This document shows positions 3,483-31,373 of a DNA stretch of 32,585 bases, piece by piece. Source of the DNA: an uncultured bacterium (GTDB lineage: Bacteria; Verrucomicrobiota; Kiritimatiellia; CAIKKV01; CAITUY01); contig CAJBSZ010000111.1 in assembly GCA_903958395.1 (NCBI GenBank), forward strand, positions 1 to 32,585, read 5' to 3'. The notes under the pieces are model-generated. The model had not been told where the DNA came from. It searched no databases and worked only from the letters and a program-made list of their open reading frames with translations. A program made the translations under genes and the position numbers. Each line of letters begins with the position of its first letter. Position 1 is the first letter of the stretch.

Positions 3483-3528
3483 GGCGTTTCCTTTCTACAT
3501 ACCTGCGAACCTTGCTGACTTGTCAACA

Positions 3529-3572: not shown

Positions 3573-3607
3573 TTTGTAAGCCTGTTCGGCTGGAAATGCC
3601 TTACAAA
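3573..3607. repeat. Inverted repeat between PATR-1 promoter and PATR-2 end
   Basis: Arms TTTGTAAG (3573-3580) and CTTACAAA (3600-3607) are perfect 8-bp inverted repeats around a 19-base loop that contains a small AGCC/GGCT stem. On the minus strand the T-run lies before the hairpin rather than after it, so it does not look like a standard intrinsic terminator for PATR-2, which ends at 3619. It begins exactly where similarity to the duplicated promoter at 8398 ends. Confidence 0.5.
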
Positions 3608-3618
3608 AAAAACATCAC

Positions 3619-8118: not shown

Positions 8119-8308
8119 GGGTGTTCTCCTTTATGAGGTTGGGATAGACCCCGGTATCCCAATTTGCGTTGTTATTCCAGTTCCCGCTCGCGTTGCCGCT
8201 CACAAGGTTGGTCCACACCGCCGCCGGTGCGGAACTGCAAATTGCCAGAAAAACGATACAGAATGCAAAATCCCTGAACTTATCCCTGTTATGGCTCAGT
8301 TCCTGCAT
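8111..8308 (-). pseudogene. 65-codon PATR N-terminal stub fused ahead of PATR-2
   Basis: The first 57 residues are almost the same as PATR-1, including the signal peptide and GNASGNWNNNANWDTG. The frame then ends with NLIKENTHG and a TAA inside the PATR-2 start region, overlapping that ATG by 8 bp. The stub keeps the intact promoter module C. It looks like the front of a duplicated PATR gene whose body was replaced by PATR-2, leaving promoter, leader and signal sequence. It may now act as a translated leader that couples PATR-2 to the AraC-type promoter. Confidence 0.7.
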
Positions 8309-8354
8309 GGCATTTGCCCCCCCAACACCTACTAGTCTTGCTGATCTTTAAAGA

Positions 8355-8419
8355 ATATTATCACAACAACTTTGCAAACGATATGGACTTCCTGATCACG
8401 TCTTTGGACTTCGTGAGCA
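8355..8419 (-). promoter_or_regulatory. Operator/promoter module C
   Basis: Half-sites are TGGACTTCCTGATCA (8384-8398) and TGGACTTCGTGAGCA (8405-8419), 21 bp apart. The minus-strand extended -10 is TGATAATAT (8355-8363), 20 bp from the proximal half-site, and is the best -10 of the set. It drives the stub and PATR-2. A 23-bp stretch between operator and -10 is nearly identical in module B. The rest of the 8309-8462 gap shows no other gene. Confidence 0.75.
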
Positions 8420-8462
8420 TCATTCAGAAGTCCTTCATTTCATGTCGTGAGAAATACGGATC

Positions 8463-13058: not shown

Positions 13059-13131
13059 TTTGTCACATCCCGACTTCCGTTTCACGGCTTCTTGTTGCCG
13101 TGCATCCCGTAGGCCGCAATCCACTCCGCCC

Positions 13132-14940
13132 TTACCAAATTAGAATTACAGGGCTCAGCGAGGGAGGCACGACATAGATACACTTCTGCTCAGTATCGTT
13201 CAGAAGTTTATATCCGGGATTGATGATCCAGCCGCTGAAATCCGTTCGCAGGCAGGTCCCGCCATACGTGAACAATGCCGCCCGATTCGCCTGCAACGCA
13301 CCGGAAGAACTGACATTCACGACCGCCGACGCCGGAAGCGTCAGGTTCCCGGTCACTCTCACCGTATCCGAGGTATTCAGTCCGCCATCACAATTCCAGT
13401 TATAGCACGCCCCGTCAGACAACGTGGCGTCACCAGACAGGTTCAACCGCCCGGTTGTATTCGTCCCGGCCGGCGACAGGATGCCCCCACTCGCAAGATT
13501 AACATGCCCGGTGACGGTGCCGGCTCCGGCCAGCGTCTGATTGGACACGATGTTGAACCCGCCTGCGACTGAGGACACATCCAGCACGCCAGCGGGTCCA
13601 AGACAAATTGAAGCGTTGTTGCTGATCATCGCCGCATTCGCCAACTTCAACACTCCATTTGATATGATCGTGTCACCGGTATAGGTATTGGTGCCACCCA
13701 GCGTCTGCGTGCCCGGACCCGTCTTGACGACGGATAAATTGCCGCCGATCCGGCCCGCATACGCCCCGTTGGTAAAGTTATATGTTCCGCTCCCCGACAG
13801 CGTCAGCGTCGCCACCGTCGCGCTGGAGTTGGTCACCACCGGATTATTGAACCCGTACGACAACGTCAAACCGCCGATATCCTGATTGTGACCGTTGAGA
13901 TCCAACGTGAGTCCACGAGCAGGGTTATTAGCACTAAAAGAAACCTGAACGCCACGGAAGAAGTTCTCCACATCCATCACCACCTTGTTATCGGAAGAGT
14001 CGGTAGAAAGGCTCACGGAACCAAACAACCAATTCGTGCTTGCAAGCCGTACAACACGGGGAGAATTAACCGGGGTAATGGCCAGGATGCCGCTCCCCAG
14101 ATTCCCTGAGCCCCCGAACGAACCCTGCCCTGTGAAGGTGATGTTCGACACTGTGTTATTGATTCCCCACAAGATGATTGCATTGATAACCGCCGCCGTG
14201 CCGCCACCCGTAAACCCAATGAAGCGGTTATTATTCTTGTAATTACTAATCGTCACCGTTCCCGACCAGCTACATCCATTGCTGACAAGTATGCTGGAAC
14301 TGTAGCCCGTCCCTAAGACATTAGCCCCGTCAATCGTGACGTCTTTTGTTCCGGATACATTCATGGCAAGTCCACCGGCCGCAGTTGTGTCATGGTGCCT
14401 AAGGGTCACTGCGCCGCTACCCGCGCCACCAAGATGGTTAAGCTGCAGTAAACCGTTCGCAACTGTGACGCCACCGGATAGCCCCGTGTTATTGTTGGTG
14501 AGCACCAGCGTGCCGATACCGGTTTTGGTGAACCCCTGGCTGCCCGCGAGCAGGGATTTGATCGTGGCCGTCCGGTTTGTCACAGTGATCGTCGGAGTGC
14601 CCGAGCCTGCGGAAAGCGCAATTGCGTTACTGATAACCGTCCAGTCGCTGGACGCCGTCGTGGCATCCGCAAACTTCAGCGTCCCAACCGCGACACCGGC
14701 CGCCACGTTCTGGGTGACGACTGAGGCGGCCGTAATGTTGAGCGTGCTGAAATCGGCCACGGCATCCTGGGCGTCAGGATAAGCCCCGGAGTCCCAATTT
14801 GCGTTGTTATTCCAGTTCCCGCTCGCGTTGCCGCTCACCAGGTTGGTCCATACCGCCGCCGATGCTGAGTTGCAAATTGCCAGAACACCCATGATAGCGA
14901 AGATCCTGAAAACAACTCTACTATGCTTCTGATCCTTCAT
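13132..14940 (-). CDS. Exported PATR beta-strand repeat protein (PATR-4), mosaic
   Basis: A 602-residue protein with a signal peptide (FAIMGVLAICNSASA). The first two thirds are close to PATR-1 (same GNASGNWNNNANWD opening, nearly identical DNA around 14100 and 2640). The last third follows PATR-2 (shared NLASGGILSPAGTNT and FTYGGTC..TDFSGWIINPGY) and not PATR-1. No cell-wall or outer-membrane anchor is visible. I see no ribosome-binding site before the ATG, and the extended -10 of module D ends only 7 bp upstream, so the transcript may be leaderless. It is the first gene of a probable two-gene unit with the CBM6/PATR gene and is divergent from an AraC regulator. Confidence 0.85.
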   Translation of the reverse strand: MKDQKHSRVVFRIFAIMGVLAICNSASAAVWTNLVSGNASGNWNNNANWDSGAYPDAQDAVADFSTLNITAASVVTQNVAAGVAVGTLKFADATTASSDWTVISNAIALSAGSGTPTITVTNRTATIKSLLAGSQGFTKTGIGTLVLTNNNTGLSGGVTVANGLLQLNHLGGAGSGAVTLRHHDTTAAGGLAMNVSGTKDVTIDGANVLGTGYSSSILVSNGCSWSGTVTISNYKNNNRFIGFTGGGTAAVINAIILWGINNTVSNITFTGQGSFGGSGNLGSGILAITPVNSPRVVRLASTNWLFGSVSLSTDSSDNKVVMDVENFFRGVQVSFSANNPARGLTLDLNGHNQDIGGLTLSYGFNNPVVTNSSATVATLTLSGSGTYNFTNGAYAGRIGGNLSVVKTGPGTQTLGGTNTYTGDTIISNGVLKLANAAMISNNASICLGPAGVLDVSSVAGGFNIVSNQTLAGAGTVTGHVNLASGGILSPAGTNTTGRLNLSGDATLSDGACYNWNCDGGLNTSDTVRVTGNLTLPASAVVNVSSSGALQANRAALFTYGGTCLRTDFSGWIINPGYKLLNDTEQKCIYVVPPSLSPVILIW

Positions 14941-15033: not shown

Positions 15034-15882
15034 ATGCAATATTTCAAGGGAATACGGTTTTTGATGTGGGACAACATCCCCGACTACCGCCTTTTCCTTG
15101 AGCGCCAGATGAAGGATTACTACGTCCTTCAGCTTAACCGGTCAGGCCCCTTTCTCCATGCGGTCGGCAACAATCGTGCACGTCTCATCAAATCGCCTTG
15201 CGCCTGGTTCACCGGGCCCGGCCTCCGTTACCGTTTCGGCACCCCAAAAGGGCAGTCACGTCATCATAGCTACGTGTCCTTTAACGGTCCGGCGGTCACC
15301 AGGTTCATACGCGGCGGACTGGCACCGCTTACAAAGGAGCCCGTTCTCCTGACCGAGCCGGAACGTTTCTTCCAGACCATGGATGCCCTGTTTGAATGTT
15401 TGGGCCCGGATATTCGATTCACCAAGCCGGTTAAGAATATGCACGCCAGGGCCAGACACCTTGAAACAATTCCAGACCCGGACATGGCTGTATACCTTCT
15501 TGAAGGCCTTTTCCTCCAGCTCGCACGTCAGCCCAAAATCACCGCAAATGATCCGTCTGAACTGGCTATAAGAAACCTGGCACAGGCTGTCCGTGAAAAG
15601 CCTCTGGATGAATGGGATTTCGAAAATGAATCGAAGACTCTTCACATGAGCTATGCCCATTTCCGGCGCCTGTTCAGGAAATGGATCGGCGTCCCGCCGC
15701 TCGGATTCCTGCGCTCCTGCCGCCTGGACTGGTCAGCCATGCAGTTGCGACACTCCAACAAACCAATCAAGGATATTGCCGAAGAAGGCGGCTTCGAGGA
15801 CATCTTCTACTTCACCCGCATTTTCTCCAGCCACTTCCACACCCCACCCGCCCGCTACCGCCAGATATTCAGGGAAACCTGA
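15034..15882 (+). CDS. AraC-family transcriptional regulator (AraC-1)
   Basis: A 282-residue protein with a C-terminal pair of helix-turn-helix motifs (about residues 190-280). The second reads IKDIAEEGGFEDIFYFTRIF followed by H..PPARYR, the AraC signature. The N-terminal 170 residues would be the sugar-sensing cupin-like part; residues such as GPG.RYRFG fit, but the ligand is unknown. The start has an AAGGAA ribosome-binding site seven bases upstream. It is divergent from PATR-4 across operator module D, and its stop lies two bases from the converging GH2 stop. It is the best candidate to bind the 21-bp-spaced half-sites, because AraC proteins typically bind two direct half-sites two helical turns apart. 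The second AraC at 25932 is an alternative. Confidence 0.9.
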   Translation: MQYFKGIRFLMWDNIPDYRLFLERQMKDYYVLQLNRSGPFLHAVGNNRARLIKSPCAWFTGPGLRYRFGTPKGQSRHHSYVSFNGPAVTRFIRGGLAPLTKEPVLLTEPERFFQTMDALFECLGPDIRFTKPVKNMHARARHLETIPDPDMAVYLLEGLFLQLARQPKITANDPSELAIRNLAQAVREKPLDEWDFENESKTLHMSYAHFRRLFRKWIGVPPLGFLRSCRLDWSAMQLRHSNKPIKDIAEEGGFEDIFYFTRIFSSHFHTPPARYRQIFRET

Positions 15883-15884
15883 GC

Positions 15885-18800
15885 CTACTGCAAAAGCCTG
15901 CGTGCAAACAGAGCAGCAACAGGATTGAACCGTGTCCGCCCCGTCAGCGCAACCTGGCAGATCCGGTAACATCCACCACCCGCCTTCTTCTCCATAACCG
16001 CTCCCGCCTTGTGCCAGGGCTCCTGCCAGTTCCCTGTGGCAGTCTCCAGAACCATCTGCCATCTGGCTGGCACCGGATCCACAACGTTCGACAGTAACGG
16101 CGTCGCGTAACCGACCGATTCATCACACCAGAACTTCACATCATTCGGCTGCAACCCGGCCACCAGAGGATGTCCGGTCGCCCTCGAAACAAAGAACCTC
16201 GGCCCGATCCCACCCCTCTCAACTTTCACCACATCACCGCCAACTGCGTATTCACCCTCAGGCCATTCCAGCAACACGGCCACAGCGCCGCCCGCCACGG
16301 CTTTGTCCACCTCACCACGGCACCTCGCATAAACCGCCGGATCTTCACAGAGAATTACATCCCTCGCACATGGTCTGATTCCGTGCAGGGCCGCCGCTTG
16401 TGGCGCGCCGAGGACAGAAATTAATCCCATCTCCTTTGCCAATGCCGCCGCCCGACCATGGCGTCCACCCAGGATGTACGCCCGCCGCTCAGGCAGGACG
16501 GGCAGGCGTGTATGAATCTCCAGCGTCTGCATTGACTCGTGCAGAATACTCCCGCCTGCCGCACACAGGGTCAGCCGCACCACGGCCCGGCAACGCTCAT
16601 TAACCTCAGGCAGTTTAAACCTCAAACGTCCCTGCGCCTTCGGCGCACAAGCCGCAATATCCGCCTGCGTTTCGCCGGAATAAACAATCACATTCCTCTT
16701 GCGGGAACGCTCACTGGTCTCCCATTCCATCTGATACACCAACCGCGCCCCTCGCACCCGCTCATGCGTGTCATTGCAGACCCACACGTCAAACTCCGCC
16801 GTCTCTCCGCTCCAGAAATTCCAACGGTCAGACCTCAGCGATACCATCAATGGAGTCAGGGCATCACGATACGCGAAGTACGCCTGCTTGGGCTGACGAT
16901 CCACGTCCATCAGCGTCTTCATCCAGCCGGCTGGCCAGGCATCAATGAACAGGTGCCAGGCAAACGTGTTCATCCTGGCATCCCTGCGGTACGCCTCGGT
17001 CATCATCCGCGCAATCCAGGCCTGGTGCGCCTGGCTTGTTTTGATCCAATCCTCCAGCGATCCCGGCGTTTCGTACCAGACATGATGAAAACGCTCAGTC
17101 TGAGACATCCTGATTAATCCAGGACGCCACGCAGCCGGCGGATCACCCGGCTTGGGCAGCCAGCTTTCCGGGTAATATTTCCTCATGACCGGCAGATTAT
17201 CCAACCCCTCCGCTCCGAATTCGCCGCATCCGTAATGCCAGCCCGGCTTCACCTGCATCCAGTGACCGTGGTTCAACTTTCCGAGATCCACCCCCTGCCC
17301 CAGGTACCAGCCGCAGTAACAGTGATTGTCCGGCATATGCGCCGGAGCCGGCGGATCATAGTCGCCATCACACCACTTGATCACCCGGTCCGGATTCGCC
17401 TGTCTCACAACCCGGTCCGCCATCTCAAAAAAATCCTCCAGTTCCGGGCGCGTAAGATGACGGTGCGGCTTGCCCATCGCATTCGGAAACGGCTCGTTCA
17501 CGTAACTCACCAGCACGTTGCAGGCGTGCGGGCGCACCAGCCTCTCCATCTCCCCGGCCTGCCGCACCGCCTCACACATTTGATTGCGACGCAGACACCC
17601 AAACAGCGGCAGATCAGTCTGCGTCATCATCCCCAACCGGTCACAATACTCGTAAACTTCCTTCTGCACCGGCCGCTGGGTAAGTCGCAGAAAATTCATA
17701 TGGCAGATCCTGGCAAGCAGGATGTCGTCAACAAGCTGGCTGAAATCACCGCGCATCACACACTGCTGCTCATGCCCCATTGTGTTGGCGCCACGGAGCT
17801 TGACCTCCCGCCCGTTCAGATAGAATTTACCCCTGGGCTTGGACTTTTCATCCTGCCGGAATGAGCGCATGCCGAACTGCTGCTGCGCCGTATCACACAC
17901 GGCTCCATCCCCGTCCAGCAATTCCACCTGTGCCTGGTACAGCCACGGATGATCCACATCCCAGGTCCTGAATCCAGGCATCGCCAGCGGTACACGGAAA
18001 TAGTTCACCCCGGCCCCCGCCGACAGCACACGCCGCGGATCGCTGAATTTCTCCATGTCGCCATGTCCGCGGATCTCCAGCGAGACAGGCGTATACTCCA
18101 AACGGCGAATCACGGTTTGCCTGAAATTCCGTCCATACACTGAAACCCTCAACCGGACCGGCTTGTTCTCCACATCGCAGTTGAAAACCTCAACCCACGC
18201 CTCCGCCCGTTTTTCGTCCGGCACCGGACGCACAAAGACATCCCTTATGGACACCCTGCTCCCTGCCTCGATAAACACCGGCTGATAAATGCCCATGCCC
18301 GGCGGACAATGATGCCAACCCGCTTCAGGATCATCATAACCGGGCCCCGTTGCCGCAAATAGTTTGTCCCCCTCCAGGTCCTGCGCTCCGACATGCTGCC
18401 CCATACAAATTGCATCGTTCTCAACCTTGACGAGCAGCTCGTTCATTCCCTGCCGTGCATGACGCGTGAAATCAAACTCAAACGGCGCAAAAAAACCCTC
18501 GTGTGATCCGAGAAAGGCACCGTTCACGAATACATGCGCCTTGTAATCAACCCCGCGAAACTTGACGAACAACGCGCCCATGTTCATCATCTGGCGCGTC
18601 ACCTTGAACCGGGTCCGGTAAAATGTGACGGCCCGGCCCAGCGGCGGCCCGTAATGCGGAATCGTCACCCGTGTCCACGCTCCGGCACCCGAAATGGTTG
18701 AGGCAAAATCCCTGCGATCTTTCTCCGTCTCCTCCCTCCAGTCAAAAGACTTCAGCTCGATGGTCTTTCTCTTACTTTCCAAATCTGGGGCATGATTCAA

Positions 18801-19058
18801 CAAATAACCCGCCATGCGGGTGCGCTGACGGCGCAACTCATTTTCAAGATCCTTGGCCGTGCGCATCCTCCTTGCCTGATCCTGCAACCGACGCCGGGCC
18901 TTCCGATCCAGCGGCAGCACTTTGCGCGGCACTGGCGCCGGCCCCTGCGCAACCAGGTCATTACCGCGCCGCTCATAGCGCTCCGTCGCAATACACGCAA
19001 ACACATCCCTTTCAGACACGGAATCAGATTTCATTCCATTCATATCACTCCCGTTCAT
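15885..19058 (-). CDS. Glycoside hydrolase family 2 enzyme, cytoplasmic
   Basis: A 1057-residue GH2-type enzyme (beta-galactosidase, glucuronidase or mannosidase group). An N-terminal jelly-roll sugar-binding domain (VNGAFLGSHEGFFAPFEFD) and an immunoglobulin-like domain precede a TIM barrel with MGHEQQ...NFLRLTQRP. The acid/base Glu is in VSYVNEPF (near residue 519) and the likely nucleophile Glu in CGEFGAEGL (near 612). There is no signal peptide, so it should act inside the cell on imported sugars. The chosen ATG overlaps the symporter stop as ATGA, implying translational coupling. An ATG 15 bases further in has a clearer GGGAG site and is also possible. It is the last gene of the UroD-symporter-GH2 operon. 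The exact substrate cannot be read from sequence. Confidence 0.9.
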   Translation of the reverse strand: MNGSDMNGMKSDSVSERDVFACIATERYERRGNDLVAQGPAPVPRKVLPLDRKARRRLQDQARRMRTAKDLENELRRQRTRMAGYLLNHAPDLESKRKTIELKSFDWREETEKDRRDFASTISGAGAWTRVTIPHYGPPLGRAVTFYRTRFKVTRQMMNMGALFVKFRGVDYKAHVFVNGAFLGSHEGFFAPFEFDFTRHARQGMNELLVKVENDAICMGQHVGAQDLEGDKLFAATGPGYDDPEAGWHHCPPGMGIYQPVFIEAGSRVSIRDVFVRPVPDEKRAEAWVEVFNCDVENKPVRLRVSVYGRNFRQTVIRRLEYTPVSLEIRGHGDMEKFSDPRRVLSAGAGVNYFRVPLAMPGFRTWDVDHPWLYQAQVELLDGDGAVCDTAQQQFGMRSFRQDEKSKPRGKFYLNGREVKLRGANTMGHEQQCVMRGDFSQLVDDILLARICHMNFLRLTQRPVQKEVYEYCDRLGMMTQTDLPLFGCLRRNQMCEAVRQAGEMERLVRPHACNVLVSYVNEPFPNAMGKPHRHLTRPELEDFFEMADRVVRQANPDRVIKWCDGDYDPPAPAHMPDNHCYCGWYLGQGVDLGKLNHGHWMQVKPGWHYGCGEFGAEGLDNLPVMRKYYPESWLPKPGDPPAAWRPGLIRMSQTERFHHVWYETPGSLEDWIKTSQAHQAWIARMMTEAYRRDARMNTFAWHLFIDAWPAGWMKTLMDVDRQPKQAYFAYRDALTPLMVSLRSDRWNFWSGETAEFDVWVCNDTHERVRGARLVYQMEWETSERSRKRNVIVYSGETQADIAACAPKAQGRLRFKLPEVNERCRAVVRLTLCAAGGSILHESMQTLEIHTRLPVLPERRAYILGGRHGRAAALAKEMGLISVLGAPQAAALHGIRPCARDVILCEDPAVYARCRGEVDKAVAGGAVAVLLEWPEGEYAVGGDVVKVERGGIGPRFFVSRATGHPLVAGLQPNDVKFWCDESVGYATPLLSNVVDPVPARWQMVLETATGNWQEPWHKAGAVMEKKAGGGCYRICQVALTGRTRFNPVAALFARRLLQ

Positions 19059-21238
19059 CCGCCGATCTTGACCATCAGCACCAGTAAACCGACAATACCT
19101 GCGGATCCGATTGAGCACCAGGCAACACCCACCCAGTCTTCACGTTCCCATTTGCGAAATTCCCAGTCTGTCCCCGGGAACAGTTTCAGATGATCCATAC
19201 GGCCTGGATTTGCACGCGTTAATGCCATTTCACGTTCATCATCCTCGCGCGACCCCCGCACCGCCGTCCGCATTCTTCCATAAAATTGTGCCAGGAGCTC
19301 ATCCGGCTCCCTTCTCGTCATTAACGACACCACGACAAGTGCCAGAACCGGCACGATAATGCGGAACAGCATCGTAAGCGTCTCGTTGAAGGAATATGAA
19401 TTGCGCGACAGGTCCCAGCCCATCCGGTGGAGGAGTACCAGCTCAACCTTGAGAGCCCCGCGGCCTTCCATCACACCGTCGCGCAGCTTGAGGTCCTCGC
19501 TCCAGAAAACGGATTTCTTCGGCAGTAGCACTGTTTTATCAAACGAAGCCCCAACCGCCAGCGCAGCAGGCCGCTCGCCTTCCGCCCGTCCTGCCGCCTG
19601 CAGACGATCCCAGCGAGCAACGGCCCTCTGCCGTTCCCCGGCATCCATGCGGCTGGCAACGTACGTGCGCGTAACCGGCACAGGCTGCGTAACAACGGTC
19701 AGAGCCGGAAGCGTGCGAACCCCGGGCAGAAAAGGCAGGCCGAATGGCAGCAGAACCGTCATGATGAACATCACCAGCATGGAGGCCCAGGCGCCGGCGC
19801 GGGTGGCACGCCGCCACAGCATGCCGAGCAGAAAACTGGCGGCCAGTATCGAATTGAACATAACCATCATTTTCATCAGTCCGAAAATACTCCGGAACTC
19901 CATCGCCACCGCCATTGACACCACCATGTACAATACGCTGAATGTCCGGCCAGCCCATATATAATGACCCTCTGATCTGTTAACCACCAGCGGACGATAC
20001 AGGTTGCGAGTGATCAACCCAGCCGTTGTAATCATCATGGACGACTTGGATGCCATCAGTGCGGCAATCAGGCAGGCAATCATGAGTCCTACCAGTCCGA
20101 TCCCCAGCGGCCCCAGCAGGTCCCGCGTGGCATGGCCCCACACGTAATCGGGATCCTTAATCGTTCCGCCGTACAGCAGCAACGTCAGCAGCGCCGTGAA
20201 TCCCCAGATCACGATGGCATAGCGTTTCAGGAAGATGCCGTTAACAAACCCGAGCCGCGCCGTGTATTCGTCCTTTGCCGATCCGCACGCCGTCAGCTGG
20301 TTGGCCTGCACCAGCGTATTCATGATGCTGAGCAGGGAGAACGCCGCAATCCAGTACCAGGTAAACTCCATCATTGCCGGCGACCCCCAAAGCTCCAGGA
20401 ACGATGCAGGAAGAACCCTGTGCATGGCATCGAACGATCCCAGCACCCCGCTGCAGCCATGCATATGGTTCACCTTGATCATGGCAAATGGAATCAGAAG
20501 GAAGGTCAGGACAAGAATCAGAATACCCTGGATTAGATCGGTCATGAAAGCCGCGGCAAGGCCACCCGCACTCGCATAGATCAAGGTCACCAGCGCCACC
20601 ACGACAATCAGTATGTTTTCATTGAGGTAGGAAAACTCCTTGCGGGGATTGATCCTGCGGAGCTCGTCCAGCCGCGCCCGTTCTTCTGCCGCAAGCAGCG
20701 CATAATCAGCCGCCTCGAGCTTCTCCCTCTCCACCGCCTGCGCATACTCAACATGTTCAACCGTCGTCAGCGCCGTTTCGGGCTTCGCCGCAATCGCCGC
20801 CACGGTCTTACTCATGGCCGTCAACCCGATCGCCGCCACGATCACAAAAAAGAGAGTCTGGCACAAAGCATAGAATCCGGCCATCCGCCGTGATCCATAC
20901 CGGTCCTCAAAGAAATCGGCCAACGTCAGCAACCGCAGGCGGCGGTACCACACGGAACTCATCCATAACACAGGCATGATGAAGACACCGCCACAGACTG
21001 TGCCCCATATCCCCGCCAGTCCACTGGTATTCGCCACGGTTGTGGTTGTGGTCACCGACTCCACCGATGTCGCCTGCCCGAACGCGGCAAAGGTCTGTAT
21101 CCATTTGCCGAACCGGCGCCCGCCCAGAAAGAAATCCTCCTGGCTTTTGATCAGCCTCATGGCCCGCCAGGCAATGAAAAACACCACGACAAAATACAGG
21201 ACAACAACCGTCAAATCAGCCCAGTTCAATCCCCACAT
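19055..21238 (-). CDS. Sodium:solute symporter (SSS family)
   Basis: A 727-residue membrane protein. It starts in the SSS style (LNWADLTVVVLYFVVVFFIAW, then the conserved DFFLGGRRFGKW loop) and has about 13-14 hydrophobic segments, including ASAGGLAAAFMTDLIQGIL, the conserved SSS sixth-helix region. It is longer than usual because of two soluble inserts, a charged Ala/Glu-rich helical stretch near residues 150-200 and a large loop near 520-620. It would import a sugar or glycoside with sodium. Its start overlaps the UroD-like stop by 13 bp, with an AGGGG ribosome-binding site, and its stop overlaps the GH2 start, so the three genes form a tightly coupled operon. Confidence 0.9.
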   Translation of the reverse strand: MWGLNWADLTVVVLYFVVVFFIAWRAMRLIKSQEDFFLGGRRFGKWIQTFAAFGQATSVESVTTTTTVANTSGLAGIWGTVCGGVFIMPVLWMSSVWYRRLRLLTLADFFEDRYGSRRMAGFYALCQTLFFVIVAAIGLTAMSKTVAAIAAKPETALTTVEHVEYAQAVEREKLEAADYALLAAEERARLDELRRINPRKEFSYLNENILIVVVALVTLIYASAGGLAAAFMTDLIQGILILVLTFLLIPFAMIKVNHMHGCSGVLGSFDAMHRVLPASFLELWGSPAMMEFTWYWIAAFSLLSIMNTLVQANQLTACGSAKDEYTARLGFVNGIFLKRYAIVIWGFTALLTLLLYGGTIKDPDYVWGHATRDLLGPLGIGLVGLMIACLIAALMASKSSMMITTAGLITRNLYRPLVVNRSEGHYIWAGRTFSVLYMVVSMAVAMEFRSIFGLMKMMVMFNSILAASFLLGMLWRRATRAGAWASMLVMFIMTVLLPFGLPFLPGVRTLPALTVVTQPVPVTRTYVASRMDAGERQRAVARWDRLQAAGRAEGERPAALAVGASFDKTVLLPKKSVFWSEDLKLRDGVMEGRGALKVELVLLHRMGWDLSRNSYSFNETLTMLFRIIVPVLALVVVSLMTRREPDELLAQFYGRMRTAVRGSREDDEREMALTRANPGRMDHLKLFPGTDWEFRKWEREDWVGVAWCSIGSAGIVGLLVLMVKIGG

Positions 21239-22212
21239 AGGGTCCCCTTCGTCATCCGTTCATACGCCCACTGGTCCCATTCTTGCTTCACCCCGATGCC
21301 GGGCAGATCAGGATAGTTCTTGAAAATCAAACTACCGCCAAAGAGGTCTAGCATCAACCCCACCTCATGTTCGATCAAGGCTTTGTCCCCCGTGGGCAAC
21401 ACCTTCTGTATGTCCACCGGCGCCCACAACGTGGCCTTCCTCTGCCTCAATCGGTCGGCCAGGTCAGGCATGTCATAAATCCGGGGCTGGTCGAACTGGA
21501 AACAATCAACGCCGCAGTCCATCAAGTCGTCAAGCAGAGCCCGGTTACAGCCGCACGAATGAAGAAACACCTTCATCCCCAGCTCATGCGCCAGCCCCAT
21601 CAACCTTGAATACAGCGGCTTGAAATACTCGCGGAACATTTCCGGGCTGAACAGCGTGCTGGTCTGGGTCCCAAGGTCCTCGCCGATCCAGATTCCATCC
21701 GCCCCCGTACGCGCTGCCATTCGAATCTTGGTTTCGTACACACACGCAACCTTCTCATGAAGCTGATTCAACTCATCAGGATAAAGAGCCAGATCCAGAA
21801 GGTAATTTTCAAGTTTCCGGAGATAACGCGAATTGTCAAAGATCCAGCCTCCGATGTGGGCCAGACGGAAACGTTCTGGTTCAGCCTTAAATGCCCGCGC
21901 CATTTCAGCCCAGCATTCATCCCTGCCGTAGTCCGGGATTTTCATGGCGGCAAGCTTGCTCCAATCGTCCAGAACAGGTGTGAGAATTTCACCTTTGACG
22001 CATCCGCCAACCATCCTGACCCACAGATTCCCCCATTCATCATCGTAATACTCTTGATCACCCTCCACGCGCCGAAGCGGCGTATAGCCAGCCGCCGGAC
22101 CCGGCTGAACGATAAGCAGATCATCCATCCGTCCGCCGTCAAAATTCAAGCCGGACCTCGGCGCATCACACCGCTCCAGATTTGCAAAGATTATCTCCCG
22201 GGAATCTTTCAT
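21226..22212 (-). CDS. UroD/MtaA-family methyltransferase-like protein (UroD-2)
   Basis: A 328-residue protein of the uroporphyrinogen decarboxylase / cobamide-methyltransferase superfamily. Visible features are GADGIWIGEDLGTQ, the FSPEMFREYFKPLYSRL segment, and a zinc-type HSCG motif (His218, Cys220). The third metal-ligand Cys expected near the C-terminus of MtaA-like enzymes is not present; the equivalent region reads GSLIFKNYPDLPG. It is unlikely to be a haem enzyme because it sits first in a sugar operon. Transfer of a methyl group from a methylated sugar or a related C1 step is only a guess. The ATG has GAGG almost directly before it, a short spacing. The promoter is module E, about 57 nt of leader. 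Confidence 0.85.
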   Translation of the reverse strand: MKDSREIIFANLERCDAPRSGLNFDGGRMDDLLIVQPGPAAGYTPLRRVEGDQEYYDDEWGNLWVRMVGGCVKGEILTPVLDDWSKLAAMKIPDYGRDECWAEMARAFKAEPERFRLAHIGGWIFDNSRYLRKLENYLLDLALYPDELNQLHEKVACVYETKIRMAARTGADGIWIGEDLGTQTSTLFSPEMFREYFKPLYSRLMGLAHELGMKVFLHSCGCNRALLDDLMDCGVDCFQFDQPRIYDMPDLADRLRQRKATLWAPVDIQKVLPTGDKALIEHEVGLMLDLFGGSLIFKNYPDLPGIGVKQEWDQWAYERMTKGTLCGD

Positions 22213-22275
22213 TTCCTCAATAGAACTCCCTCAGTTTTGCCAGCATCGCGCGCGATTTCTCTATTTCCACGTTAA

Positions 22276-22340
22276 AGAGTATCACCCGGCTGTCTCCCGT
22301 GAAATGGACACTATGCTCCATTATTTGGACTTTCTGCGCA
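22276..22340 (-). promoter_or_regulatory. Operator/promoter module E for the UroD-2/symporter/GH2 operon
   Basis: Half-sites are TGGACACTATGCTCC (22305-22319) and TGGACTTTCTGCGCA (22326-22340), 21 bp apart. The minus-strand extended -10 is TGATACTCT (22276-22284), 20 bp from the proximal half-site. The module fills the 134-bp gap after the GH36 stop, so the UroD-2 operon has its own regulated promoter rather than depending on read-through. Confidence 0.7.
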
Positions 22341-22346
22341 CCTATG

Positions 22347-24497
22347 TTATTTATCATTCATCACAAATACAGCCGCAGAAAATGGCGTGGCCGCAAGTGT
22401 TACCTTTCCAGAACGAGTCATCTCGGGAGTTAACCCGCCTGACTCCAGCGTCCGGCCCATTGACCAGGCTCCGGGCCATGGCATGTCGAACTCAATCCGC
22501 TCCTTGTTGTTTCCTCCGAAACAATGAACAACCGCAAGCACCTGCCCTTCGTGCCTTCGCACTACCGCCTGCCAGCCTTCCGGATGATGATAATTCAAAA
22601 CCTGCGGCCCCACCCGCCGCACCTGCCCATGCTTGATGATCGGCCATACATCCCTGTAGAAGGCCATCGCCTCACAGACTAGTGCCCATTGATCAGCAGA
22701 CAACTGGTGAATATCGCCCGAGAGACACATCCGTCCCAGAAATGTTGACGCCAGTGAATAGAGAAGCCTCGGCATGCTGTCAGCCGGACGCAGAACAGCC
22801 CACACCTGTATTTGCCGAGCCAGCAAAAGCCGTTGCAGATTCGCCCCGATGATGGGTATATCCACAGTTTCGTGCGCATCCGAGAAACTCGTCATGGCAC
22901 ACCGGCAGACAATCGATGGCTCATGCCGATGTCCGCCCGAGGCGCAATTCTCAATAACGATACCCGGCAACTCGCTTCGCAACTTATCAAACCAGGGGTA
23001 AATCCCCTCCTCCACATGACGACGCAATCCTTCTCCCTGCGATTCCTCTCCGTCGCACCCCATTCCAATCGTCTCATTATAATCCAACTTAAGATAACCG
23101 AATCCGCCCTCCTTAAGTTGCTGAATCACCCGGCGGCCAAGGTAATCCTTGATCCACGGATCACGAAGATTCAAGAACCGACGCCCACGCACCGTCAACG
23201 GTTGGCCATCCCGCTTCAGCAGATGTTCATCCGCCTGAAACGCCTTTGAGGTCCGACCGGCAACCTCCGCCTCAAACCACAGCCCCGGAATCAATCCGCG
23301 GGCACGAACCGCATCAGTTACGGCACGCAGACCATTAGGAAACGACGGCTTGTAAACTTCCCAGTCACCCTGCGCCCATTCCCACTGGCCCGCCGCGCCA
23401 TACCAGCCCGCATCAATAACCAGATACTTCACCGGCGTGACCTGCAGCCGATCGGCCAGAGCAACAATCTCATCGTGATTCGGACGCCCCCAGCTCGTGC
23501 ACCAATCATTGAACACGATCGGCAGATCCTGTTCCACTAACGGCTGACGCTCCACCGCAGGAATCATCTGCGCATTCAAACGGTCACAGGCATCTTCAAG
23601 GGAACCCGAAACAACCGTCAGCACCACCATCGGCATCACCAGCGACTCACCCTGGACCAGTGTTTTCGTCCAATGTCCGAATTCGCGATCCGCCAATCCT
23701 CCAGAAACACAAAGATGATCATGCTTCCGGTAAAGCTCCATCTGCCAGGAACCAGCCCAGCAAACCTGTGCACCCCAGTACACCCCTGCAGGCCGGTCTT
23801 CCACCAACACCCGCGGAAAGAACCCACGGACAGGCATCGAACCCACCTGCCCGAACCGCTCGCTGAATGCCGCATGTCCAGTCCACGAACGGTCCAGCCC
23901 AAGGCTCTCCGCCGGTACACTTTCAAGCCTCCCCTCCGAACTCCATCCACTCCGGAACCGGTGAATCCACAATCGCCCGGCGGCATCCGCAGAATCAAAC
24001 GGAGTAATGCCATCGAGTGAAAAGCTAGTGACCGCCTCCAACGTAACTGGTCCGGTGCCCCGGTTTGTAACGGTAGTCCTTACTGTCACATACGGCGCTC
24101 CTGTATTCCACCTGACTTCATGCACAGCCTCCAGTCCACCCGCATGTGCCAGACGCGTTCGAACGATCAGCCCCTCACCGCCCTCGTCCAGATCCTGCGA
24201 AACAAACCGCAGTCCACCGGAGCCGCGCAGAGTACGCCCCTGCGCAAAACCGCCGGGATATTCCTCGCCCATCACCTTTACATGAACAAGTGGATCAATT
24301 ACCGAAGCTGGAAAAGGAGCGCCGTCATCCGGCAGATTTGCCACCTCCACACTCCGGGTACGCAAATCCTCCTGTCTCTCGGCCACTTCACCCAGGCGAG
24401 CCATAGGGATCAACGACATACCTATATTGCCGCAAGCCTCATCACGCACATAGCGCAACACCATGTCATTTAACACATAATCATTAATCGTTCTCAT
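22347..24497 (-). CDS. GH36 alpha-galactosidase-like enzyme, cytoplasmic
   Basis: A 716-residue enzyme of clan GH-D. The N-terminal beta-sandwich (to about residue 325) is followed by a TIM barrel. The barrel begins FNDWCTSWG and contains VIDAGWYGAAGQW, the nucleophile Asp472 in YLKLDYNET, and the acid/base Asp540 in SFSDAHETVD, with the conserved ENCASGGHR between them. Length and motifs fit GH36, which usually has alpha-galactosidase or alpha-N-acetylgalactosaminidase activity. There is no signal peptide. The ATG lies two bases after the UroD-1 stop; a TTG four codons upstream is possible but less likely. It forms a two-gene operon with UroD-1. Confidence 0.9.
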   Translation of the reverse strand: MRTINDYVLNDMVLRYVRDEACGNIGMSLIPMARLGEVAERQEDLRTRSVEVANLPDDGAPFPASVIDPLVHVKVMGEEYPGGFAQGRTLRGSGGLRFVSQDLDEGGEGLIVRTRLAHAGGLEAVHEVRWNTGAPYVTVRTTVTNRGTGPVTLEAVTSFSLDGITPFDSADAAGRLWIHRFRSGWSSEGRLESVPAESLGLDRSWTGHAAFSERFGQVGSMPVRGFFPRVLVEDRPAGVYWGAQVCWAGSWQMELYRKHDHLCVSGGLADREFGHWTKTLVQGESLVMPMVVLTVVSGSLEDACDRLNAQMIPAVERQPLVEQDLPIVFNDWCTSWGRPNHDEIVALADRLQVTPVKYLVIDAGWYGAAGQWEWAQGDWEVYKPSFPNGLRAVTDAVRARGLIPGLWFEAEVAGRTSKAFQADEHLLKRDGQPLTVRGRRFLNLRDPWIKDYLGRRVIQQLKEGGFGYLKLDYNETIGMGCDGEESQGEGLRRHVEEGIYPWFDKLRSELPGIVIENCASGGHRHEPSIVCRCAMTSFSDAHETVDIPIIGANLQRLLLARQIQVWAVLRPADSMPRLLYSLASTFLGRMCLSGDIHQLSADQWALVCEAMAFYRDVWPIIKHGQVRRVGPQVLNYHHPEGWQAVVRRHEGQVLAVVHCFGGNNKERIEFDMPWPGAWSMGRTLESGGLTPEMTRSGKVTLAATPFSAAVFVMNDK

Positions 24498-24499
24498 GG

Positions 24500-25618
24500 T
24501 TACCTGCAAATTCGTTTTGCCTCGTCATAGAGTGCCAGGATATTCTCAACCGGCGTCACGGGCTGCAGATTATGACACGGCCCGAGGATAAATCCGGTTC
24601 CGTCCGACGCCAGGGTATTTACCAGCATCCTCACCTCACTTCGCACATCATCAGGCGTCCCTCGCGGCAACGTCTGCTGATTGTCAACACCGCTGTGAAA
24701 ACAGAACGAAGAACCATACCGTGCCTTCAAGTCCCTCAAATCCCAGTCTCCACACCGCCACTGGATCGGGTTCAACACACGAACACCCATCTCGCTCAAC
24801 TCCGGCAACAGGGGGCGGCAATCACCATCATCATGATGAAACACTTCAACCCCATATTCCTTTGCCAGGTCAATGCCCTGCTGCATCCATGGCTTGTAAA
24901 ACTCCCTGAAGATGCCGGGACTGGTAATCAAGCCGGTCTGCGACCCCCAGTCATCCGTGACCTGGGTAAACTCAATCCGGCCGCGCGCCGCCTCAAAACA
25001 ACGGCGATGATATTTGAGAAAGAATGATCCAAGCTTTTCCAGAAGCTTCTGCGTAAATTCCGGATCCATCACCGGATCCATCAACGACACCTCCAAACCG
25101 CGAAGATAATTGTGATAAGTAAATACCGCGTGGTATCCCACGCAGACAGCGCGGGCGCCGCAACAGTCGATTATCTCCGGCAGTTTTGAGTAGTCATACC
25201 AGTCGGGATCAGGCCAGACATGATCATCAAGATCCGCCAGGGAAGTCGCGTTGCCCAGCGGATACGCAACCTGCTCCTCGTATGTTCCCGTCCCGTAATT
25301 CACCGTACGGTACTCAAAGCCCCATTCATTGCGGCGCCCCTTTTCCAGCCGGGGAATCTCAGGGCCGATGTATGGCGGAGCAATACTGAAGATGCCGTCA
25401 ACCCCCAGCTTGTCCCATAGCGCAATAATACCTGCAACACCTCGCGATAACGGACCGCCGCACAACCCGATATGCGGCGAAGAAGAATCCTTCCCCTCGG
25501 TAATGCCCAGTGCATTCATAAGGGCTTCCTGGACTTCCGGCGTAGCCCACATATCCGTCGGTATCCGGTCCACACGTTCATGCCTCACCGCCCGCAAAAT
25601 TCTTTCCCGGTTATTCAT
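24500..25618 (-). CDS. UroD/MtaA-family methyltransferase-like protein (UroD-1)
   Basis: A 372-residue UroD-superfamily protein (opening MNNRERILRAVRHERVDRIP, typical of this family). The start is set by an AAGGAG site six bases before the ATG; a longer in-frame extension lacks one. The usual metal-binding HxCG motif is HHDDG here (residues 261-265), so the Cys is replaced by Asp, while a conserved Cys348 near the C-terminus (LGPCHNLQP) remains. This is the reverse of the pattern in UroD-2. It is the first gene of the operon with GH36 and is transcribed from module F. The substrate is unknown; no corrinoid-binding protein is encoded in the window. Confidence 0.85.
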   Translation of the reverse strand: MNNRERILRAVRHERVDRIPTDMWATPEVQEALMNALGITEGKDSSSPHIGLCGGPLSRGVAGIIALWDKLGVDGIFSIAPPYIGPEIPRLEKGRRNEWGFEYRTVNYGTGTYEEQVAYPLGNATSLADLDDHVWPDPDWYDYSKLPEIIDCCGARAVCVGYHAVFTYHNYLRGLEVSLMDPVMDPEFTQKLLEKLGSFFLKYHRRCFEAARGRIEFTQVTDDWGSQTGLITSPGIFREFYKPWMQQGIDLAKEYGVEVFHHDDGDCRPLLPELSEMGVRVLNPIQWRCGDWDLRDLKARYGSSFCFHSGVDNQQTLPRGTPDDVRSEVRMLVNTLASDGTGFILGPCHNLQPVTPVENILALYDEAKRICR

Positions 25619-25931: not shown

Positions 25932-26663
25932 ATGTGGCAAGTCAGGGGCGATAAGTCTTATGATGTTGTGCGTCGTTGGCAGGTGGGACAGCATTTGGTA
26001 GCCCTGCGGACGATCCGGGGGCATGGGGTAGTCTATGGAGACTGTGGCGAACCGGTGGAGGTGGATCCGGGATCTCTGCTTGTGTTCGAGGATGTCCGGA
26101 TCAATCGTTACCACTGCAAGGGACCTGTCTGGCATTTCTGGTGGTTTGAATTCACGGTGGAGGGGCCCGTGGGATTTCCGCTCTGGTTGCCGATCAAAAT
26201 CCCCTTGTCCCAAGTGGAGTCACTGATGTGCCAGGATGTGTTTTCGGCATTGCGCCGGACCGCGCCTGCCCAACGGGGGCTGGCCTCGGCAGGGTTGTTA
26301 TGGTTGTTGCAACGCTGGCGGAGTTCCGTGGCGGAATCCGGGATACGGTCGCCTCATGAAGCGGCCCTGGCACGGGTGCTGGAGGCCATGCACGAACGGG
26401 TTGACCAGTTATGGAGCGTTGGCGAGATGGCACGCATGGCGGGACTGGGAGAGCGGAGGTTTCGTCAGGTGTTTGCCGCCGCGACCGGACAGGCACCCAA
26501 ACGGTTCCACGAGGGACTGCGGCTGGAATATGGCAGGCAACTCCTGCGTGCGGGACGGATCAAGCTGGAGGATGTCGCGGATCGGACCGGCTTTTCCAGT
26601 GCATTCCACTTCAGTCGCGCATTCAAGAAACGCTTCGGGCACTCCCCCTCCCGGATCGGCTGA
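25932..26663 (+). CDS. AraC-family transcriptional regulator (AraC-2)
   Basis: A 243-residue protein with an N-terminal beta-rich sensor region (VDPGSLLVFEDVRINRYHC, HFWWFEF, as in cupin-type AraC sensors) and two C-terminal helix-turn-helix motifs. The last reads LEDVADRTGFSSAFHFSRAF with FGHSPSRI. The ATG has only a weak CGGAA upstream. A better AGGA site precedes an out-of-frame ATG at 25913 that opens a 13-codon ORF overlapping this start, perhaps a leader peptide. It is divergent from UroD-1 across module F and so is a second candidate regulator of the operators. The inducer is unknown. Confidence 0.85.
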   Translation: MWQVRGDKSYDVVRRWQVGQHLVALRTIRGHGVVYGDCGEPVEVDPGSLLVFEDVRINRYHCKGPVWHFWWFEFTVEGPVGFPLWLPIKIPLSQVESLMCQDVFSALRRTAPAQRGLASAGLLWLLQRWRSSVAESGIRSPHEAALARVLEAMHERVDQLWSVGEMARMAGLGERRFRQVFAAATGQAPKRFHEGLRLEYGRQLLRAGRIKLEDVADRTGFSSAFHFSRAFKKRFGHSPSRIG

Positions 26664-26792: not shown

Positions 26793-27518
26793 ATGTCACC
26801 TTACGAACTCGAGATTCGCCAGATGGGATTTTTCAGAACGGCACTGATTGCGGGAGTGCGGCCCGGCCAATCGGACAACCTCAAGACAATCATGGCAACC
26901 CCGCCTGCCGATCTGAAACAATGTCTGAATGCGACCGGAATCCGCCAATTCTCTGCCTATGCCAAACGTTTCTCCGAGTCCGACTGGTGCATTGTCTATT
27001 TCGACTACAGCGGCCAGGACCGTGAGGCCACCGCCCAAGCGCTGGAATGCAGTTCGCCTTGGTGGAATCAGGTCACCGCATGCCTTGAGCCGCATCCCCG
27101 CGCCATTGGCAAATCATCCAAATGGACTAGAATGGAATGGATCAACCACGTACATGGTGCTGATATGAAAATTGCCACCACCGTCGAACGTGGCATGGTT
27201 GTCACACGCCTGCACCCCGACAAAGAACTCTGGTACCGCACACTCCATCAAACTAACTGGCCCGGCGTCGGGGACCAGATGGCCCGCAGCAACATCCGAC
27301 ACTGGACAACATTCCTGATCGAGGTGGGCCCGGAACTCTACATGTTCTCATATAACGAGTACATCGGCTCGGACCGCGAAGGCGACATGAAGGCGATGCA
27401 GGCCGATCCCGTTACGCAGCGGTGGTGGACGCATACCGAGCCCTGCCTGAACCCTCTGCCGGAAATGGCAGGCAAGGGCTCATGGGCGGGAATGACCCAA
27501 TTGCTGCAATTGCCCTAG
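26793..27518 (+). CDS. Two-domain L-rhamnose mutarotase-like protein
   Basis: A 241-residue protein made of two copies of the small ferredoxin-like mutarotase fold (DUF718/RhaM type). The first spans about residues 8-105 and the second 125-235. The second shows the family pattern clearly: VTRLHPDKELWYRTLHQTNW, FSYNEY, and MQADPVTQRWW followed by CLNPLP. Single-domain RhaM proteins are about 105 residues, so this is an internal duplication. The family interconverts alpha and beta anomers of L-rhamnose or related deoxysugars, acting in the cytoplasm. The first copy keeps ADLKQ..NATGI..FS and FDYSGQD but lacks the usual His at the equivalent position, so it may be structural. The start has a strong AGGAGG. 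Confidence 0.75.
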   Translation: MSPYELEIRQMGFFRTALIAGVRPGQSDNLKTIMATPPADLKQCLNATGIRQFSAYAKRFSESDWCIVYFDYSGQDREATAQALECSSPWWNQVTACLEPHPRAIGKSSKWTRMEWINHVHGADMKIATTVERGMVVTRLHPDKELWYRTLHQTNWPGVGDQMARSNIRHWTTFLIEVGPELYMFSYNEYIGSDREGDMKAMQADPVTQRWWTHTEPCLNPLPEMAGKGSWAGMTQLLQLP

Positions 27519-29998: not shown

Positions 29999-30742
29999 TT
30001 AGGGTCTTGGGTCAATTAATCTGTCGCATAGACTGGAAATACTGATTCTGAGTTTCATCGCCAGCCCTGCGAGCTCTTCAGGGGCAAGGATTTCCCTGAG
30101 TTCCTTCTCAAGTTTGGCCTGATTCAATTCCGTCACTTCATGTTTCATATCCGAAACCAGTTCAGACAGAGACATGCGACGTTTCCGACCACCATGGGGG
30201 CCTCGCCGCTCAACGGATTCCAGTCGCCGCATGAGAACATGAAAATCAGGCTGGACTGCCATGACCGTAAAAAGGAAATAGGCATCGTATAAGTCCCTAA
30301 GCAGACGCCGCTCATTCCAGGCAGCTAATTTATGCGCCAGCGAGGATTCATAACTCATAACCCGGATGATTCGGCCCTGAAGTCTATGTTCATGAGCAAG
30401 ACGAATGGTGCTCAATTCTGTTGTGGAACAGTTCTCCGCTACCTGCACCTCCACCTGCACTCGGGCACCCGCGCCTACAACCTGGCACCGCAAACACTTT
30501 GAGTTCAGCGAATGCGTCACCGTCACATCATCTAACGCCTGCAATGCCTTGACCACCTCAGGCGCAATCTCCTTCTTTGAAGAATGCGGCACAAAGACAT
30601 AGTCCAAATCATTGGTGAATCGCGGACAATCAAGCAGCCGCAGAACCATGCCTCCTTTCAGGATGGCGCGCGGACCAAATATTTCGGCAAAATGGTTCAT
30701 GATCCGAACCATCAATCCTTCAAGTGCATCATGGCTTGACAT
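29999..30742 (-). CDS. AbiEii-type nucleotidyltransferase toxin
   Basis: A 247-residue protein of the DUF1814/AbiEii group. The nucleotidyltransferase core is visible as LKGGMVLRLLDCPRFTNDLDYVF (about residues 29-51), containing the GG and the DxD-type NDLDY motif; a later SYESSLAHKLAAWNERRLLRDLYDAYFL segment contains the conserved Lys and Asp of the family (K..A...R...RDL.D). AbiEii toxins are GTP-binding nucleotidyltransferases whose activity stops growth and can limit phage. The ATG overlaps the antitoxin stop by 14 bp; an upstream in-frame TTG is less likely. It is flanked by GH106-derived repeats, suggesting insertion into a glycosidase cluster. Confidence 0.8.
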   Translation of the reverse strand: MSSHDALEGLMVRIMNHFAEIFGPRAILKGGMVLRLLDCPRFTNDLDYVFVPHSSKKEIAPEVVKALQALDDVTVTHSLNSKCLRCQVVGAGARVQVEVQVAENCSTTELSTIRLAHEHRLQGRIIRVMSYESSLAHKLAAWNERRLLRDLYDAYFLFTVMAVQPDFHVLMRRLESVERRGPHGGRKRRMSLSELVSDMKHEVTELNQAKLEKELREILAPEELAGLAMKLRISISSLCDRLIDPRP

Positions 30743-31334
30743 TGAGACAATTCTCCACAAAACGGACAAATTTCGGATTGCGATAGTGTTTCAGATACTT
30801 GTTGATCCTCTCTTTGTCCAACCTGCCGCAATCTATGTCGCCAAACACATCAAACGGGAACCGGTGGCCTTTCTGATAGAAATACAACGTATCAATGTAC
30901 GCCTTCTCTGCGTCAGCCAGGCGAATACCCGATTTAAACTCAATGCCGAACATCAGATCCGGATTAATCCCTAAATGAATAACAGCCCCCATCCCGTTCC
31001 CATAATGCCTGCACCGTCCGACCTTCACCCCAGTGACCGTGTGCGCAGGAATTACGCCTATCAGCAGATGACGACTCAATACAGTGCCGAAGCTAATGTA
31101 AGATTCCGGATTTATTCGGCAGGATACCGCCTCCAAATTGAAGTTTTCAGTAACATAAATAGATTTGCAGAACCGACGCAAAACCCCGTTCGCCTGGAGA
31201 TTCCGGATACACCGAAACAATTCCACCTCGCTGGCGGGCGCAATTAGGTTCCGAAGATCCGACACAGTAAAAACACCCTGCATCTCTGCGGCGTGACGCT
31301 CCAGCCTTTGATAATCGGCAAACACTCTTTTCAT
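30729..31334 (-). CDS. AbiEi-type antitoxin / autoregulator
   Basis: A 201-residue protein beginning MKRVFADYQRLERHAAEMQG with a winged-helix DNA-binding N-terminus (VFTVSDLRNLIAP, ELFRCIRNLQANGVLRRF) followed by the AbiEi-type C-terminal domain (LSRHLLIGVIPAHTVTG, FGIEFKSGIRLADAEKAYIDTLYF). AbiEi antitoxins neutralise AbiEii and repress their own operon by binding inverted repeats, and matching repeats are visible at 31337-31372. The chosen ATG is only about 4 nt from the predicted transcription start, so the message may be leaderless; no ribosome-binding site is seen. The longer frame start at 31373 would lie inside the operator and is rejected. Confidence 0.8.
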   Translation of the reverse strand: MKRVFADYQRLERHAAEMQGVFTVSDLRNLIAPASEVELFRCIRNLQANGVLRRFCKSIYVTENFNLEAVSCRINPESYISFGTVLSRHLLIGVIPAHTVTGVKVGRCRHYGNGMGAVIHLGINPDLMFGIEFKSGIRLADAEKAYIDTLYFYQKGHRFPFDVFGDIDCGRLDKERINKYLKHYRNPKFVRFVENCLNVKP

Positions 31335-31336
31335 AA

Positions 31337-31373
31337 TGACAGATACTATACAGATATAGACATTATCTGTCAC
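31337..31373 (-). promoter_or_regulatory. AbiE promoter and operator
   Basis: On the minus strand -35 GTGACA (31368-31373) and -10 TATAGT (31345-31350) have an exact 17-bp spacer. Overlaid on them is a perfect 9-bp inverted repeat, TGACAGATA (31337-31345) and TATCTGTCA (31364-31372). A further ACAGATA (31350-31356) repeats ACAGATA (31339-31345) at 11 bp, one helical turn. Binding by the antitoxin would block the promoter. The rest of 31374-31420 shows nothing. Confidence 0.7.

Follow-up and report, generated by a model that had tools for sequence, protein, structure and literature searches.

The window, a 32,585-nucleotide stretch of DNA from an uncultured bacterium of the class Kiritimatiellia (contig C111 of a 5.2-Mb genome in 559 contigs, 93% complete), encodes two proteins of the uroporphyrinogen decarboxylase (URO-D) superfamily, UroD-1 and UroD-2, in a single tight run of five minus-strand genes. 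As seen from Pfam matches and inspection of the gene junctions, the run consists of UroD-1, a GH36-like glycosidase, UroD-2, a sodium:solute symporter (SSS) and a GH2 glycosidase (Table 1). Both belong to a very large family of UroD-type proteins. UroD-1 and UroD-2 are probably corrinoid-dependent methyltransferases, whatever their substrate. Judging by gene content, O-demethylation of a sugar is our best guess for the operon, and we regard as evenly balanced the more specific reading that the two proteins are MT1s of the UroD superfamily removing methyl groups from a methylated sugar. Corrinoid use has good support in the family and in the UroD-1 clade, and less in UroD-2.

Corrinoid genes in the genome and beside UroD-type genes

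A profile search of the whole genome yielded 39 URO-D matches, and the genome also has 17 B12-binding and three B12-binding_2 matches. Two stand-alone MtgC-like corrinoid proteins, both of 211 amino acids (aa), are encoded on contigs C139 and C30, and neither reaches the cut-off of a named NCBIfam kind. A third, weaker B12-binding_2 match, on C147, adjoins a URO-D gene and a gene in which DUF1638 is joined to a histidine kinase (L030:5966-7867). The reductive activase (RACo) is encoded twice. The copy on C178 is AcsV-like, and beside it lie genes for a methyl-tetrahydrofolate (THF):corrinoid methyltransferase, CdhD, and CdhC. The genome also encodes pterin-binding methyltransferases and has acetyl-CoA-synthase genes. 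A search of this genome found no member of the MttB family. The UroD-type MT1s MtvB, OdmB, VdmB, MtoB and CdmB work with three partners, namely a corrinoid protein, its activase, and an enzyme that transfers the methyl group to folate, and all three are encoded here. The preliminary description had left it to the rest of the genome whether a corrinoid protein and an activase accompany the two UroD-like proteins; both do, each in two copies.

RACo and multiple URO-D genes occur together. Among 96 genomes of the phylum, with at most 19 URO-D candidates scored per genome (the 39 of our genome come from the separate profile search), RACo was present in 34 of the 35 genomes having at least two URO-D genes and in 2 of the 61 having one or none (Fisher 2e-22, a p-value that ignores relatedness). 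The two vary together within genera g26, g32, g33, g52, and g55, and in genus g49 one genome (G172) has RACo pieces and no URO-D gene. Further, RACo is found in 46 of 50 genomes carrying a gene of the UroD-1 clade (from 76 loci), compared to 36 of 96 in the phylum sample.

In other phyla, genes of the UroD-1 clade, recognizable by the motif His-His-Asp-Asp-Gly (HHDDG), are directly linked to corrinoid genes. The planctomycete locus L148 contains five UroD genes, preceded by genes for RACo, a corrinoid protein, methylene-THF reductase, a pterin-binding methyltransferase, and an amidohydrolase; the third UroD gene encodes an HHDDG protein 40% identical to UroD-1. In two Acidobacteriota loci (L137 and L142), RACo starts 16 bases after the HHDDG gene or overlaps it, on the same strand. 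In Hydrogenedentota (L118), a corrinoid protein and a protein with the Met_synt_B12 domain lead straight into the HHDDG gene, which also lies beside genes for homocysteine S-methyltransferase and DUF1638 (L118:5592-6344). Elsewhere RACo is 3.1 kb off on the other strand (L099) or lies by a non-HHDDG UroD gene (L155). The 1.03 Mb of loci, some of which, including L144 and L152, are cut by contig ends, contain five RACo genes, versus 0.31 expected from the genomes' own density.

Apart from the relatedness ignored by the Fisher test, several observations weigh against extending corrinoid use to UroD-1 and UroD-2. Genomes G157 and G172 have RACo without two URO-D genes, and G166 has two URO-D genes without RACo. 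Co-occurrence is an association and does not prove that every paralogue uses a corrinoid. The window contains no corrinoid gene, and no corrinoid gene neighbour was seen in the UroD-2 clade.

Sugar context and the methyl donor

Methylated sugars are common constituents of the polysaccharides of algae, plants, and bacteria. Sugar genes are common around the URO-D genes of this genome: 66 immediate neighbours include 12 AraC regulators, four SSS, four Peripla_BP_3, three sulfatases, two GH95, and two RhaT, with GH106, GH42, GH31, GH3, GH65, and glucuronate isomerase occurring once each. Among 66 control genes from six stretches of the same genome, unmatched for gene function, no AraC family occurred two or more times among the 25 of 128 families listed. 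The two nearest relatives of UroD-1 by identity also lie in sugar loci. The first (L080, 64%, Spirochaetales) is accompanied by two solute-binding proteins, two ABC permeases, a GH31 enzyme, and an AraC regulator; the second (L144, 55%, Bacteroidales, cut by a contig end) by a GH2 enzyme, a symporter, and an FAA hydrolase. This GH2 enzyme is 46% identical over 1047 aa to the GH2 of the window, and another GH2, in L141, is 59% identical over 702 aa.

This sugar context is a local feature, seen in our genome and in the closest relatives alone. In addition to the unmatched control stretches, two results for the wider UroD-1 clade count against a sugar substrate. With neighbours taken from a simple longest-open reading frame (ORF) gene call, some of which may be spurious, no family had more than two members among 119 of 124 nearest neighbours. 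A comparison set of distant genes (119 of 120) gave the same picture, and no clade-wide sugar link was found. The suggestion, made at the outset as a speculation, that the two proteins demethylate methylated sugars thus fits the gene context in our genome and in the two nearest relatives, but has no counterpart in the wider clade.

The donor might not be a sugar at all. If UroD-1 and UroD-2 were corrinoid methyltransferases acting on a methoxylated aromatic, or on some other small compound with a methyl group that comes from the same plant or algal material, the glycosidases would be co-regulated only. We consider this unlikely, although the absence of a common sugar neighbour in the wider clade speaks for it, as do the characterized UroD-type MT1s named in the available text, all of which act on methoxy-aromatics or haloalkanes (PMC13222342; PMC8630106), and the homocysteine S-methyltransferase gene beside the HHDDG gene of L118, suggesting methyl supply to methionine. 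On the other hand, a Pfam scan of the operon shows two glycosidases, a symporter, and an AraC regulator, with no gene for the degradation of aromatics. The sugar genes and AraC regulators around the own-genome URO-D genes and the sugar loci of the two nearest UroD-1 relatives also argue for a sugar donor.

Several methyltransferases with known donors come from the same superfamily. According to the available parts of the respective papers, the O-demethylases MtvB, OdmB, VdmB, and MtoB and the chloromethane enzyme CdmB are UroD-superfamily proteins, and clades with unknown substrates are marked there (PMC13222342); the superfamily is very large and holds O-, S-, and halogen-demethylases (PMC10418091); and MtoB is active on methoxybenzoates (PMC8630106). 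UroD-1 and UroD-2 resemble these enzymes in superfamily and predicted fold. They differ in that the substrates of the known MT1s are methoxy-aromatics or haloalkanes and that accounts of these enzymes include their corrinoid-protein genes (PMC13222342; PMC8630106), whereas UroD-1 and UroD-2 belong to a sugar operon, with the corrinoid genes in other parts of the genome. A word search of the available text of PMC13222342 gave no mention of sugar, carbohydrate, Verrucomicrobia, or Planctomycetes, and the literature searches made turned up no paper linking UroD-type MT1s to sugar substrates.

The sole enzymatic route of sugar-methyl removal that we found described, in the accessible part of one paper, needs oxygen: a cytochrome P450 oxidatively demethylates 6-O-methyl-D-galactose, an algal sugar (PMC10033563). 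As in the putative corrinoid route, a methyl ether is taken off a sugar. However, the P450 route is oxygen-dependent and releases formaldehyde, while a corrinoid route would run anaerobically and conserve the methyl group.

If the operon does serve sugar O-demethylation, the symporter would take up sugar fragments, from which the GH36-like and GH2 enzymes would release O-methylated sugar units. At the mouth of the TIM barrel, UroD-1 would accept one methylated sugar, or one methyl position, and UroD-2 another. The ether oxygen would be activated by the conserved pocket, via a bound metal or acid catalysis, the candidate residues being Asp223, His262, Asp264, and His349 in UroD-1 and Asp179, His218, and Cys220 in UroD-2. 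The methyl group would then be attacked by the Co(I) form of a common MtgC-like corrinoid protein, whose gene lies in another part of the genome, and passed to folate and the Wood-Ljungdahl pathway, with RACo re-reducing the corrinoid.

Somewhat more tentatively, we suggest that this may be one instance of an entire anaerobic metabolism built on methylated sugars. In it, a genome would encode dozens of UroD-type methyltransferases, each controlled by sugar and located next to its own glycosidases and transporter. They would demethylate sugars with different methylation and share a few corrinoid proteins and one or two activases, feeding methyl groups into the Wood-Ljungdahl pathway, and their active site would have been remodelled repeatedly (H-C-H, H-D-H, H-C-x) to suit the substrate. 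If UroD-1 and UroD-2 are corrinoid O-demethylases of sugars, the widely misleading annotation "uroporphyrinogen decarboxylase" would hide a large, testable set of anaerobic demethylases, and sugar methyl ethers would join lignin methoxyl groups as a methyl source for acetyl-CoA synthesis.

Predicted fold and active-site motifs

Both proteins score above the gathering score of Pfam PF01208 (23.9 bits) and hence belong to the URO-D superfamily, and their confident AlphaFold2 models (Table 1) have the TIM barrel of the UROD/MtaA type. Foldseek gives MtaA as the best match of both models, which also share the His of the HxC motif with MtaA, MtbA, and CmuA. Foldseek also yields xylanases, sugar epimerases, and a fucanase for both models, with E about 1e-5 to 1e-4, taken here as common TIM-barrel likeness. 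CdmB is absent among the structural matches listed, which excludes nothing. In sequence, CdmB is remotely matched by a HMMER profile of UroD-2 and its relatives (E 1.2e-9).

Named subfamilies are a different matter. Against TIGR01464 (HemE; cut-off 302.95 bits), UroD-1 scores 11.2 bits and UroD-2 gives no match; HemE is also unlike these genes in that the latter are tens of divergent copies in sugar loci. No URO-D match in our genome resembles a true HemE, the best reaching 215 bits (575 aa, C539), and at 93% completeness of the assembly the absence is unproven; clear HemE-like matches in sister genomes score about 360-438 bits.

Two further results here weigh against corrinoid use. The scores with TIGR01463 (MtaA/CmuA), 35.7 bits for UroD-1 and 43.5 bits for UroD-2, are far below its cut-off of 235.4, and decarboxylases match both models as well as MtaA does. 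In VIA-align, UroD-1 gave Z 26.5, rmsd 3.3 with 310 aligned residues for MtaA (4ay7) versus Z 26.8, rmsd 2.7 with 305 for UROD; the respective values for UroD-2 were Z 26.5, rmsd 3.0 with 287 and Z 26.4, rmsd 2.8 with 290. As far as the models go, the fold appears compatible with a corrinoid methyltransferase but picks no function.

The set of MtaA ligands, a His-x-Cys motif and a later Cys (H-C-C), is present in neither protein. In HMMER profile alignments to MtaA 4ay7, the His and Cys of HxC align with His262 and Asp264 of UroD-1, the late Cys aligns with His349, and Cys348 faces a Gly; at the matching columns UroD-1 reads H-D-H and UroD-2 reads H-C-P. The distance to the following Thr-Pro likewise puts Cys348 on the MtaA Gly and His349 on its late Cys. 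Cys348, which had been thought to be the retained C-terminal ligand, is indeed present, but the two profile alignments rule it out as the counterpart of the MtaA Cys; the residue in that column is His349, as in decarboxylases, where the His of the GHG motif occupies it. Cys348 is a clade-specific Cys beside His349. The reported replacement of HxCG by HHDDG also stands in refined form, as H-x-D-G with Asp in place of Cys, plus an extra His. The remaining claim, that UroD-2 has HSCG and no Cys at the late position, holds as it was made. Zinc is not a safe yardstick for these sites, because CdmB of the same superfamily needs no zinc and has no metal in its crystal structure (PMC13222342, available part). 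UROD itself is no metalloenzyme (PMC539065, likewise in part).

These sites invite another explanation, in which no corrinoid is used. UroD-1 and UroD-2 would have the UroD barrel and work through a metal or acid-base chemistry. Their reaction would be the isomerisation, decarboxylation, or cleavage of a sugar or uronic acid set free by the glycosidases, while the RACo link would come from other paralogues. The H-D-H and H-C-x sites unlike that of MtaA, the structural tie between decarboxylases and MtaA, the His349 shared by UroD-1 and UROD, and the lack of linkage between the own-genome corrinoid genes and this operon are all consistent with it. Yet in four loci from three phyla an HHDDG gene has RACo or a corrinoid-protein gene as its direct neighbour, and RACo accompanies the UroD-1 clade in nearly all genomes (46/50), which makes this explanation quite improbable in our view.

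The motifs are conserved within each clade. HHDDG and Cys348-His349 are invariant in all seven UroD-1 rows of alignment A1, and HSCG in all eight UroD-2 rows of alignment A2, plus three more distant rows. In alignment A3 (37 rows of UroD-1 relatives and paralogues), Asp223, His262, and Gly265 are among the invariant residues, and His349 is nearly invariant. The HHDDG loci were found by a scan with a peptide pattern containing HHDD, and so motif constancy in them is partly built in; the search for relatives in 39 genomes was free of this bias.

Family-wide, the pocket varies. We used a FastTree tree of 152 rows, from which the motif columns had been left out and in which several long branches were flagged; it took about 97 of the 112 UroD-like locus ORFs, as short, X-holding, and weak ones were dropped, along with C518 (235 aa) of our genome. 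This tree implies at least 11 switches between Cys and Asp at position 264 and at least eight between His and non-His at position 349. The H-D-H set with Cys348 is found in 73 of 152 rows, a count helped by the HHDD search pattern, and the full His-Cys-Cys set of MtaA in five. Neither motif is a product of decay; rather, the family often retunes this pocket. The preliminary description had seen here a complementary loss of metal ligands, which is contradicted by motifs fixed in each clade and by the recurrent Cys/Asp swap.

The heterodimer proposed on the same grounds, in which UroD-1 and UroD-2 would supply each other's missing ligands, could draw on the shared operon, on the homodimeric CdmB (PMC13222342, available part), on the frequent grouping of UroD genes (112 UroD-like ORFs in 74 of 76 loci), and on L146, which has relatives of both proteins (46% and 43%) within 5 kb, but it is very improbable and we reject it, given the clade-fixed motifs, the single mixture of H-x-C and H-x-D among six own-genome pairs within 5 kb, namely the window's own pair, and the presence of both proteins in only two (G007 and G008) of 38 relatives, eight of which have a UroD-1 match and nine a UroD-2 match.

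The tree also contains a distinct UroD-like kind with a C-terminal Ser-Glu-Asp stretch (labelled N-H-D-G-x-E), forming one clade with support 99. Its members are L123:4749-5804, L153:11088-12149, L117:11809-12867, and L146:3555-4688, and in L123 and L153 the gene starts 7-10 bases after an HHDDG gene.

Gene layout of the window

Both UroD-like genes are real, and their coordinates and residue numbers agree with the initial report (Table 1). That report had each of them begin an operon with a glycosidase. UroD-1 does precede the GH36-like gene, but the run is single, and UroD-2 precedes the symporter, followed by GH2. The ATG of the GH36-like gene comes directly after the UroD-1 stop, and a 134-bp gap separates this gene from UroD-2. 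By eye, the gap (22213-22346, minus strand) is occupied by a small ORF of roughly 45 codons that ends just before the UroD-2 start. The ATG at 25618 is immediately preceded by a strong AAGGAG site, which makes the longer UroD-1 ORF that would start from GTG at 25732 unlikely. The nearest NCBIfam model of the GH36-like protein is beta-L-arabinopyranosidase, at 150 bits, far under its cut-off of 1100. Tying the second AraC-type regulator to the five-gene run would be a guess.

Table 1. Features of the UroD operon and its surroundings, in window coordinates
Feature	Coordinates	Strand	Basis
UroD-1, 372 aa, URO-D fold, HHDDG clade	24500..25618	-	PF01208 80.7 bits on longer ORF; AlphaFold2 mean pLDDT 95.2; ribosome-binding site before ATG at 25618
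UroD-1 His261-His262-Asp263-Asp264-Gly265 codons (H-x-D-G motif)	24824..24838	-	Invariant in alignment A1
UroD-1 Cys348-His349 codons	24572..24577	-	Profile alignments; both residues invariant in A1
GH36/melibiase-like glycosidase	22347..24497	-	PF02065 118 bits; ATG at 24497, ORF from TTG at 24509
UroD-2, 328 aa, URO-D fold, HSCG clade	21226..22212	-	PF01208 54.2 bits; AlphaFold2 mean pLDDT 92.1
UroD-2 His218-Ser219-Cys220-Gly221 codons	21550..21561	-	Invariant in alignment A2
Sodium:solute symporter (SSS)	19055..21238	-	PF00474 81.5 bits; start overlaps UroD-2 end
GH2 glycosidase	15885..19118	-	PF00703, PF02837, PF02836
AraC-type regulator, divergent from operon	25932..26663	+	PF12833 and PF00165
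Protein with L-rhamnose mutarotase domain	26793..27518	+	PF05336 84.4 bits, best stretch 136-237
Second AraC-type regulator, far end of run	15034..15882	+	PF12833 62.9 bits

Outside the operon, positions 592-1458 (minus strand) match the middle domain of hydrazine synthase alpha (PF18582, 112 bits), far from an anammox setting. Passenger-associated transport repeats occur in four large proteins encoded at 1680-14940 (minus strand; 600, 1499, 1553, and 602 aa). The 600- and 602-aa proteins flank the two giants, one of which also has a CBM6. Finally, an AbiEii-type nucleotidyltransferase at 29999-31373 (minus strand) and an overlapping 214-aa ORF upstream of it likely form a type IV toxin-antitoxin pair.

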